Positions 30,667-35,000 of a DNA stretch of 64,000 bases are shown here, in pieces (the stretch's first letter is position 1; each line of letters starts with the position of its first letter). Under the pieces are notes generated by a model. That model was not told the DNA's origin and did no database searches. It was given only the letters and a program-made list of their open reading frames with translations. The translations under genes and the position numbers were made by a program. This DNA comes from an uncultured Pelagibacteraceae bacterium (GTDB taxonomy: Bacteria > Pseudomonadota > Alphaproteobacteria > Pelagibacterales > Pelagibacteraceae), in NCBI GenBank assembly GCA_902573385.1, contig CACGJS010000001.1, positions 35,137 to 99,136 of the forward strand, written 5' to 3'.

Positions 30667-30852
30667 ATGAAAGAGCTAATTATAGCTTTAGGTCTTTTTC
30701 TTTTTATTGAGGGAATTTTATATGCCTTATTTCCATCAAAAATGAAAAATATGTTAAAAAAAATGGAAATGATTAAAGATAACCAATTACGATCTGGTGG
30801 ACTTATATTTGCACTGATTGGTTTTATTATAATTTGGTATGCTAAAAGTTAA
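30667..30852 (+). CDS. DUF2065-family small membrane protein
   Basis: 61 aa with two TM segments downstream of hflC, typical DUF2065 context. Confidence 0.8.
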   Translation: MKELIIALGLFLFIEGILYALFPSKMKNMLKKMEMIKDNQLRSGGLIFALIGFIIIWYAKS

Positions 30853-32269
30853 TATGAGTAAAATTCGAAAATTATTAATAATTTTTTTTATAGTTGTTTT
30901 TACACCTAAGATTTTTGCAAAAGAAGCTCCAGCATCTTTTGCTGATTTGGCCGAAAAATTAATGCCATCAGTGGTAAATATCTCCACTACCACAACTGTT
31001 ATTACTAATACCAATCCTTTTCCAGGTTTTAAATTTCCTCCAGGATCACCTTTTGAAGATATGTTTAAAGAATTTGGGACTCCTCAAAAAAGAAAGTCTG
31101 CAGCTTTGGGATCAGGATTTATAATTGATGAAAAAGGAATTGTAATAACAAATAATCATGTAATTCAAGACGCAGAAGATATTCTTGTAAGGGTTGGGGG
31201 TGATAAAGAATATAAAGCTACACTAATTGGTGCAGATCCTTTGTCAGATATTGCGGTTATTAAGATAAACTCAAAAGAAAAATTTATTCCAGTAAAGTTT
31301 GGTGACTCAGATAAAGCAAGAATTGGAGATTGGGTAATTGCAATAGGTAATCCATTTGGTTTAGGTGGAACAGTAACCACAGGAATTATTTCAGCAAGAA
31401 ATAGATCAATTGGACTTTCGAGATATGAGGATTATATTCAAACTGATGCCTCAATCAACTCTGGGAATTCTGGGGGGCCTTTATTTGATATGGACGGTAA
31501 TGTTATTGGCATTAACACAGCAATTTTAGGTCAATCAGGTTCAATTGGTATAGGTTTTTCAATTCCATCTAATAGCGCAAAAAAAGTTGTAAGCCAGTTA
31601 ATAGAATTTGGTGAAACTAAAAGAGGATGGCTAGGAGTTAGAATTCAAGTAGTTACACAAGAAATTGCCGATATAGAAAAGCTAGGTGATCCTAGAGGTG
31701 CATTAGTTGCAAGTGTTGCAGAAAAAAGTCCATCAGACAAAGCAGGTATCAAGGCAGGAGATATTATATTGGAATTCAATGGTACAAAAATTAAAGAAAT
31801 GAAGGAACTTCCAAAGATTGTTGCCCAAACTGAAGTTGGAAAAACTGTAAATGTTAAAGTATGGAGAAATAAAAAAGAGATTAATAAAAAAATTAAATTA
31901 GGTAGATTAGAGACATCAAGTGATTTTAAAAAGAAAGAACTTAAAAAGTCTGAAGAAGAAAAACAAATAATTTCAGAAATAAAATCTTTAAAAATCACAG
32001 TAAGACTATTAAATAAAAAAGATATTGAACAAAGAAAACTTCCAAACCAAACAACAGGATTAGTTATAACTAATATTGGTAAAAGTAGTCCAGTTAAAGA
32101 CTTAAATATAGGCGATATAATAGTTGAGGTTCAAAAGAAAAAAATCAAATCTATAAATCAACTTATAAATATAGTAGACACTGCTTTAAAATCTGATCAA
32201 AAAACAATCTTGATTGCAATCTATAATAATCAAAACCAAAGAAGATATATTGGTATTAAATTAGATTAA
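30839..32269 (+). CDS. Periplasmic serine protease, DegP/DegQ (Do) type with PDZ domains
   Basis: GSGFIIDEKGIVITNNHVI, SDIAVIKI, INSGNSGGPLFDMDG motifs, PDZ region. Confidence 0.94.
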   Translation: MLKVNMSKIRKLLIIFFIVVFTPKIFAKEAPASFADLAEKLMPSVVNISTTTTVITNTNPFPGFKFPPGSPFEDMFKEFGTPQKRKSAALGSGFIIDEKGIVITNNHVIQDAEDILVRVGGDKEYKATLIGADPLSDIAVIKINSKEKFIPVKFGDSDKARIGDWVIAIGNPFGLGGTVTTGIISARNRSIGLSRYEDYIQTDASINSGNSGGPLFDMDGNVIGINTAILGQSGSIGIGFSIPSNSAKKVVSQLIEFGETKRGWLGVRIQVVTQEIADIEKLGDPRGALVASVAEKSPSDKAGIKAGDIILEFNGTKIKEMKELPKIVAQTEVGKTVNVKVWRNKKEINKKIKLGRLETSSDFKKKELKKSEEEKQIISEIKSLKITVRLLNKKDIEQRKLPNQTTGLVITNIGKSSPVKDLNIGDIIVEVQKKKIKSINQLINIVDTALKSDQKTILIAIYNNQNQRRYIGIKLD

Positions 32270-32271
32270 TA

Positions 32272-33214
32272 ATGGACAAGCTGTCCAAGATTTTTTTTAA
32301 TTTCAGGTCCTACTGCTTCTGGTAAATCTAGTTTAGCAGTAAAAATTGCTAAAAAAATTAATGGAGAAATTATTAACGCAGACAGTATGCAGGTTTACAA
32401 GAAATTAAAAATCTTAACTGCTAGACCAAGTAAAAAAGAACAAAAAAATATCAAACATCATTTGTATGGAATAATTGATCCAGACAAAAAATTTTCTACA
32501 GGACAATGGTTAAAAGAAACAGTCAAAATTATTAAAGATATTCAAAAAAGAAATAAAATTCCGATATTAGTTGGTGGAACTGGCTTATATTTTTATTCAT
32601 TAATTAATGGTTTGGTTAAAATTCCAAAAATTCCTCTTAAAATTAGAAATAAAGTTAGATTAATACAAAGTAAAATAGGTCAAAAAAATTTTTATAAGAA
32701 ACTTAAAAAACTAGATCCAAATATTAAAAATAAATTTGATCCAAATGACTCGCAAAGATCGATAAGGGCCTATGAAATTAAATTATTTACAAAAACCTCT
32801 ATGTATGAGTGGTTTAATAAAACTGAGTCAAAATTTAAAGATAGTGAATTTTTAAAATTATATATAAATTTTAAAAGAGATGAGCTTGTCGAGAGAATTT
32901 CATTAAGAACATCGAGAATGATTGAAGAAGGCGCAATTGAAGAAGTAAAAAGATTTAATAAATTGAAGATTAAAAAAGAAAATAGTGTGAATAAAGTGAT
33001 TGGGATTGTCGAATTGACACAGTTTTTAAAAAATCAGATAAATCTAATTGAAGCTAAAGAGTTAATCTCTATTAAAACTAGACAATACGCCAAAAGACAA
33101 GCTACTTGGGCAAGAGGTAGAATGAGTTCTTGGAAAAAAATTAATCCAGCTAAAATTAGAGACTTCATAAAAAAATTAAATAAATCATCTCTTAAACTTG
33201 ACCAATTAACATAA
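32272..33214 (+). CDS. miaA: tRNA dimethylallyltransferase, apparently frameshifted near the 5' end
   Basis: [16 protein letters not shown] P-loop lies upstream of the ORF-track start (32387); continuous from ATG 32272 only if one T of the T8 run at 32291-32298 is removed; RQYAKRQATWARGRMSSW near the C-terminus. Confidence 0.88.
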
Positions 33215-33233: not shown

Positions 33234-35000
33234 ATGGGTAATTTATATTCAGGAGCAGAAATTGTTTTTAAGTGTTTGGAGGATCAAAAAGTTGATTATA
33301 TTTTTGGTTACCCAGGAGGAGCTGTACTTCCAATATATGATGAATTAAAAAATCATCCATCAATTAAACATATTTTGGTTAGACACGAACAAGGAGCAGG
33401 TCATGCCGCAGAAGGTTATGCAAGGTCAAGTGGAAAACCAGGAGTTGTACTGGTTACTTCAGGTCCAGGTGCAACAAATGTTGTAACAGCATTAACCGAT
33501 GCTTATATGGATTCAGTTCCATTAGTTTGTATTTCAGGTCAAGTACCAACACATTTAATTGGAACAGATGCCTTTCAAGAGTGTGATACAACAGGAATTA
33601 CTAGACCTTGCACAAAACATAACTGGTTAGTTAAAGATATAAATGATCTTCCAAGAATAATGCATGAAGCATTTGATGTTGCAACGACAGGTAGACCAGG
33701 ACCAGTATTGGTCGACATCCCGAAAGATATTCAGTTTGCAAAAACAAGGTATCTGAAACCTAAAAAAGAGAAAAAAATTAATGGAAAAGTTATTAATAGA
33801 TTTAATCAAAAAGATATAGATCATTTAATAAATTTAATGAGCAAATCATTAAAACCAGTTTTTTATACTGGGGGCGGAGTAATTAATTCAGGACCAAAAG
33901 CAAGTGAACTGTTAAGAGAGCTAGTTTCTTTAACTGGATTTCCAATTACATCAACATTGCAAGGATTAGGAGCATATCCAGGAGATGATAGTCTGTTTTT
34001 AGGCATGCTGGGCATGCATGGAACCTATGAGGCAAATAATGCAATGCATGATTGTGATTTATTAATTAACATTGGTGCCAGATTTGATGATCGTATCACA
34101 GGAAAGATAGACGAATTTTCTCCAAAATCAAAAAAAGTTCATATTGATATTGATCCATCCTCAATTAATAAAATTATAAAAGTAGATTTATCTATTGTAG
34201 GAGATGTTAGTGATGTAATTAGATCTACAATCAAAACTTTAAAAAAGAAAAATTTAAAATTAGATAAATCAAACAAGCAAAAAATTTCAAAATGGTGGCA
34301 ATTAATTCAAAAATGGAGAACAAAAAACTCTTTAAATTTTATTAACAGTGATGAAATTATTAAGCCTCAGCATGCAGTAAAAAGACTCTATGAATTAACT
34401 AAAGATAAAGACACATTTATAACAACTGAAGTTGGACAACACCAGATGTGGGCTGCTCAACATTATAAATTTAATAAGCCAAATAGATGGATGACATCTG
34501 GAGGACTTGGAACTATGGGATATGGTTTGCCTGCAGCAGTTGGAGTGCAAGTTGCAAATCCTAAAAAATTAGTAATTGACATTGCAGGAGAAGCTTCAAT
34601 TTTAATGACTATGCAAGAGATTTCGACAGCTGTTCAATACAATTTACCAGTTAAAATTTTTATTTTAAACAATCAATATATGGGAATGGTTAGACAGTGG
34701 CAGGAATTACTCCATGAAAAAAATTATTCAGAAAGTTATTCTGAAGCTTTACCTGATTTTGTAAAATTAGCTGAAGCTTATGGATGCATAGGAATTAGAG
34801 CTAAATCACCAGATGAACTTGATAAAAAAATTAAAGAAATGATCGATATAGATAAACCAGTGATTTTTGATTGTCTTGTTGATCAGGATGAAAATTGTTT
34901 TCCTATGATACCGTCAGGCAAGCCTCATAATCAAATGCTTTTAGGTCCTAAAGATCAAGAAGAAAATAAGATTAAAGGTAAAGGAAAGGTATTGGTTTGA
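33234..35000 (+). CDS. ilvB: Acetolactate synthase large subunit
   Basis: FGYPGGAVLPIYD, RHEQGAGHAAEGYARSSGKPGVV, TPP-binding region. Confidence 0.96.
   Translation: MGNLYSGAEIVFKCLEDQKVDYIFGYPGGAVLPIYDELKNHPSIKHILVRHEQGAGHAAEGYARSSGKPGVVLVTSGPGATNVVTALTDAYMDSVPLVCISGQVPTHLIGTDAFQECDTTGITRPCTKHNWLVKDINDLPRIMHEAFDVATTGRPGPVLVDIPKDIQFAKTRYLKPKKEKKINGKVINRFNQKDIDHLINLMSKSLKPVFYTGGGVINSGPKASELLRELVSLTGFPITSTLQGLGAYPGDDSLFLGMLGMHGTYEANNAMHDCDLLINIGARFDDRITGKIDEFSPKSKKVHIDIDPSSINKIIKVDLSIVGDVSDVIRSTIKTLKKKNLKLDKSNKQKISKWWQLIQKWRTKNSLNFINSDEIIKPQHAVKRLYELTKDKDTFITTEVGQHQMWAAQHYKFNKPNRWMTSGGLGTMGYGLPAAVGVQVANPKKLVIDIAGEASILMTMQEISTAVQYNLPVKIFILNNQYMGMVRQWQELLHEKNYSESYSEALPDFVKLAEAYGCIGIRAKSPDELDKKIKEMIDIDKPVIFDCLVDQDENCFPMIPSGKPHNQMLLGPKDQEENKIKGKGKVLV

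Follow-up and report, generated by a model that had tools for sequence, protein, structure and literature searches.

Several described systems bear on the start of the miaA gene examined here. In E. coli, miaA is controlled post-transcriptionally by CsrA (PMC12249760). In translationally coupled gene pairs, the downstream gene can be silenced by a structure at its start until a ribosome arriving from the upstream gene opens that structure, and a screen cited in the same review found that structure just behind the stop codon reduced coupling (PMC12548453). Runs of 9 A or T make RNA polymerase slip efficiently, and in a Roseiflexus IS element slippage is stimulated by a hairpin that forms in the nascent RNA next to the run (PMC5009743); for some IS elements, slippage on 8 As has been suggested (PMC1088944).

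The miaA gene described here lies in the window, by which we mean the whole 64,000-nucleotide stretch of DNA analysed, and its named close relatives are SAR11 Pelagibacteraceae. The window belongs to a draft assembly (G000) that is 61% complete and comprises 54 contigs totalling 847,581 bases. The gene order at the locus is hflC, degP/htrA, miaA, ilvB, ilvH, and the TAA stop codon of degP ends 2 nt before the miaA ATG (Table 1). The encoded protein matches TIGR00174 MiaA, for which 2qgn, 2zm5 and 3crm are solved relatives, along its whole length, including the body, the P-loop and the NADSMQVY motif. It differs from that family in one respect: as assembled, its start codon and its P-loop sit in different reading frames.

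Table 1. Features at the miaA locus (window positions) and further frame breaks in assembly G000
Feature	Position	Strand	Basis or remark
degP/htrA (Do family serine protease), upstream gene	30839..32269	+	TIGR02037 460.6 bits, cut-off 416.2; ORF
miaA start codon and short zero-frame ORF	32272..32325	+	start codon homologous to the start of same-genus relatives
Conserved start-codon hairpin, predicted	32273..32287	+	127 start regions, folding, synonymous-null test, genus-confined pattern
MiaA reading frame, +1 relative to ATG 32272	32273..33214	+	ORF, TIGR00174
T8 run, one T beyond what the reading frame allows	32291..32298	+	sequence, relatives
P-loop GPTASGKS	32306..32329	+	aligned with solved MiaA structures
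First ATG in the MiaA frame; a start here loses the P-loop	32387..32389	+	ORF
ilvB-type acetolactate synthase large subunit, downstream gene	33234..35000	+	NF006581 1072 bits, cut-off 974
polA			+1 break at A10
C-terminal protease prc			+1 break, A7 to A8
Glutamine amidotransferase			+1 break, T5 to T6
Acyl-CoA ligase-like gene			+1 break at A/T run
227-residue protein without family			+1 break at A/T run
249-residue protein	C14 near 3408		+1 break at A/T run
101-residue protein	C11 near 5714		+1 break at A/T run

The frame break in miaA

An earlier, sequence-only reading of the window claimed that the frame opened by the miaA ATG is lost at the T8 run, and direct reading of the sequence agrees. 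The zero frame closes at 32323-32325, while the P-loop frame, after a TAA at 32270-32272, stays open to 33214. That frame was also said to contain no ATG before 32387, which is correct; GTG and TTG are equally absent, so that an alternative start at any usual codon is ruled out before this point. A start at 32387 would remove not only GPTASGKS, as had been pointed out, but also the D of NADSMQVY. The P-loop frame nonetheless encodes MiaA, with a whole-protein score of 266.5 bits against TIGR00174, above the curated cut-off of 148.65.

Comparison with relatives bears out the further claim that deletion of one T restores the frame. Alignment was possible for 126 other start regions from the genus, and in all 126 the distance between the conserved TCC-AAR and the P-loop is exactly one base shorter than in the window, with start codon and P-loop in frame. 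Given these 126 starts and the TIGR00174 score, chance is not at issue, and the original observation is confirmed. The run of eight Ts occurs in the window only among the 127 distinct start regions (the window included), so the situation that would have spoken for an undisturbed gene, with T8 and another in-frame start in all relatives, was not found (0/126).

The usual sequence in the genus is TCC AAR ATT/ATA ATT TTA ATT TCA, and the window reads TCC AAG ATTTTTTTTAATTTCA at the same codons, which amounts to a substitution creating T7 plus one extra T. One relative, L222, carries an in-frame T7 at these codons (TCC AAA ATT TTT TTA ATT), and the T7 form is therefore viable; the remaining relatives have no run above T4 here. 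We infer that the form seen in L222 is the state of the window before the insertion.

A search for miaA across 151 genomes of the genus succeeded in 115, and the gene was present in all 22 of high quality. A DNA search for nearer miaA regions returned a best match 84% identical over the region. The body of the window's miaA has a dN/dS of 0.15-0.20 against relatives, compared with 0.12-0.20 among the relatives themselves, and is thus under normal constraint, with no decay.

Origin of the eighth T

Frame breaks were sought elsewhere in the assembly by protein-to-DNA alignment with frameshifts allowed, applied to the 815 of 848 kb of G000 that were rebuilt from stretches (one 2.9-kb contig reads as N) and, as a control, to 1.2 Mb of a 99% complete relative, G154. 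Under a uniform rule, which counted single-base breaks lying outside N gaps and no closer than 30 residues to the N or C terminus of the protein, 8 breaks were found in 584 genes of G000 and none in 554 genes of this single control genome, although two of the eight (C1 near 25320 and C18 near 6245) are possibly start-annotation effects. The probability of all eight falling on G000, if both genomes were equally prone, is about 0.005.

Individual inspection, in which breaks were judged partly by eye, left eight convincing breaks in G000, all of them +1 insertions at A/T runs and miaA among them. The others lie at C42 near 2682, in polA, at C31 near 4595, in prc, at C21 near 12660, in the glutamine amidotransferase gene, at C26 near 1004 and C19 near 9406, and at the two positions given in Table 1. 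The breaks in miaA and in the 101-residue protein are within 30 residues of an end and so fall outside the uniform count. Breaks within a few codons of the ends of a protein were attributed to start or stop annotation and not counted, and a break in lnt near an A16 run was left out for its ambiguous alignment. The break in polA falls just behind the part encoding the 5'-3' exonuclease. Insertions only, at homopolymers, in genes hardly lost together form the pattern of over-called homopolymers.

We therefore favour, with a probability of about 0.68, a homopolymer over-call in sequencing, amplification or assembly, so that the extra T would not be in the organism. This reading is supported by the uniqueness of T8 among the 127 starts, the in-frame T7 of L222, the constraint on the miaA body and the other +1 insertions at A/T runs. 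A natural A-to-T substitution would first have given an in-frame T7 (ATT TTT TTA, Ile-Phe-Leu), onto which an over-called T would have been laid to give the T8 of the draft assembly; in the organism, miaA would then be an ordinary gene, intact from its start at 32272. The sequence-only reading had offered homopolymer error, polymerase slippage and genuine mutation as options. The first is the best supported, by the excess of single-base breaks, their +1 sense at A/T runs and the undecayed miaA body, and the second found no support.

Genuine mutation is unlikely, though it deserves some weight. The T8 would here be a recent change in the sampled cell or strain, produced by replication slippage in a newly made T7; miaA would be disrupted or nearly so, and the tRNAs for UNN codons would lack the A37 modification. 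A T7 is a plausible target for such slippage and exists in L222, and the other homopolymer breaks could be real in a mutator lineage; indeed, a real mutator or insertion-biased lineage would give the same pattern of breaks as over-calls. Against this, miaA is present in all 22 high-quality genomes of the genus and its body is under normal constraint here, and a cell could scarcely tolerate simultaneous breaks in polA, prc and other genes.

If the T8 is real, the frame might instead be regained in some transcripts by RNA polymerase slippage, aided by the hairpin, whose end is three bases before the run. The arrangement resembles the hairpin-stimulated slippage of the Roseiflexus IS630 element and of dnaX of Thermus thermophilus (PMC5009743), in which a stem also lies just upstream of the homopolymer, and the window's stem and T run together score as terminator-like. 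The likeness ends there: the run is shorter than the 9-nt runs with documented efficient slippage, is present in one assembly only, and neither it nor the frame break is kept in the relatives. Nor are such runs avoided in SAR11 genes. In genes of G000 and G154, T8 and A8-A9 runs occur at 1.2-1.27 times their frequency in synonymous shuffles, T9 runs are near expectation (1.01 and 0.75, respectively), and clear avoidance begins at about ten (T10 and longer, 0.45 and 0.32; A10 and longer, 0.94 and 0.81), a pattern suggesting that in this lineage slippage at T8 is either weak or does no harm. The T5-to-T6 break in the glutamine amidotransferase is in a run far too short for slippage. Rescue by strong slippage at T8 is unlikely, and we regard this account as a whole as quite improbable. 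An intrinsic terminator finds no backing among the relatives, the terminator-like score being found in the window only, with its T8; the relatives have no T run above T4, the T7 of L222 excepted. A combination in which the hairpin serves Pelagibacter miaA as a dedicated cis-regulatory RNA and a real T8 in this strain completes a hairpin-plus-U-run switch, slippage or termination setting the amount of MiaA, is very improbable. It is harder still to credit that ribosomes make MiaA from a T8 mRNA, by a +1 shift on TTT-TTT or by starting at a rare codon such as the AUU at 32300. TTT TTT T does permit re-pairing after a one-base move, and the ATT at 32300 is in the P-loop frame, but the site is unconserved in relatives and a start there would omit the first strand before the P-loop (KIILI), which all relatives encode.

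The frame break in miaA serves mainly as a warning: with several +1 homopolymer insertions in conserved genes of this assembly, claims of gene loss based on G000 are unsafe.

The hairpin at the miaA start codon

The inverted repeat at 32273-32287 is conserved; it had gone unremarked in the sequence-only reading. It has the form TGGAC-N5-GTCCA, a stem of 5 bp that begins at the second base of the ATG and thus includes the UG of the AUG. The window's version folds as TGGACA-AGC-TGTCCA, at -6.5 kcal/mol on its own. Among the 127 sequences, pair 2-16 is T-A in all, pair 3-15 is G-C in 126, pair 4-14 is G-C in 124 and pair 5-13 is A-T in all, while pair 6-12 is C-G in 67, T-A in 56, T-G in three and T-T in one, and never C-A. 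Most other stem bases are fixed by the ATG, Asp and Ser codons, whereas positions 6, 12 and 15 are third codon bases. The Ser5 codon is TCC in 126/127, a codon that makes up 3-4% of Ser codons, and the codons of the loop vary freely. Within the region, corrected mutual information peaks between columns 6 and 12. The switch from C to T in column 6 has occurred only about twice on the tree, so the covariation is weak and the argument is one of synonymous-site conservation more than of covariation.

In a synonymous-null test, 91% of the sequences had a fold stronger than that of 95% of their synonymous versions. Strong start folds are otherwise rare: in either genome, about 300 other genes include only 2-3 with a start fold of -4 kcal/mol or stronger, and the median for miaA is -5.6. 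A pattern search matched 92 of 101 genomes within the genus, as against 3 of 196 genomes from thirteen other genera; the repeat is essentially confined to the genus. We hold it very probable that the hairpin exists as a conserved element. Rfam gave no above-threshold match for it, only sub-threshold chance matches to unrelated families, and no mention of degP, htrA or isopentenyl was found in the text of a paper on structured RNAs of Ca. Pelagibacter ubique (PMC2704228); the miaA start-codon hairpin seems new to the literature.

Its anatomy and conservation tip the balance slightly towards a gate for translational coupling. A closed hairpin would keep ribosomes from starting miaA independently, and ribosomes that have just finished degP would open it and go on to translate miaA, which would be the main route to MiaA. 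Two features that mark coupling hairpins are present: the upstream stop adjoins the start (the degP stop lies -1 to +4 nt from the miaA start in 126/127), and a structure covering the start is conserved beyond what the protein demands. Compared with the coupled pairs in PMC12548453, the putative gate at miaA is tiny, at 5 bp, starts inside the AUG and lies in coding sequence, and the screen cited in that review counts against the gate reading. No Shine-Dalgarno-like motif was found at miaA among the 127 starts, an absence that is not telling since such motifs precede just 5% of gene starts in G154. The likeness to CsrA control in E. coli (PMC12249760) lies in post-transcriptional control of miaA, which is putative in this genus; a search of 31 genomes of the genus did not turn up CsrA itself, which is thereby ruled out as the mechanism here.

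The palindrome could instead be a DNA site for a dimeric regulator, in keeping with its perfect inverted repeat and fixed 5-nt spacing, yet we think this improbable. TGGAC-N5-GTCCA occurs once in 815 kb of G000 and twice in the first part of G154, so there is no regulon, and an operator shared with other genes is rejected for G000, where the miaA site is the only one. The three G.U pairs at a position where C-A never occurs are a weak hint for RNA, and the place of the repeat within the start codon, adjoining the degP stop, fits translation. Mimicry of a tRNA anticodon loop, through which MiaA would control itself, was considered as some loops read UUUAAAA, and was rejected because the loops vary freely while columns 6 and 12 stay paired.

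A start structure at a tRNA-modification gene is thus kept across most of a genus in which start structure is otherwise rare. Under the gate reading, its conservation points to a MiaA output that depends on DegP translation in some of the ocean's most abundant bacteria.

Some relatives depart from the usual arrangement. In L036 (2875-2925; AG-422-A05), the first miaA ATG is lost and the start has seemingly moved into the repeat (GGACAGGATGTCC), with the repeat itself kept. The more distant SAR11 miaA genes L040, L041, L042 and L044 have no repeat and probably start at a TTG that directly follows the degP stop. A second, similar repeat, GGATTRGCWGTCCAAGATATTTTT, occurs away from the usual miaA match in three genomes (G516 C1:13694, G592 C24:3093 and G574 C2:16834).
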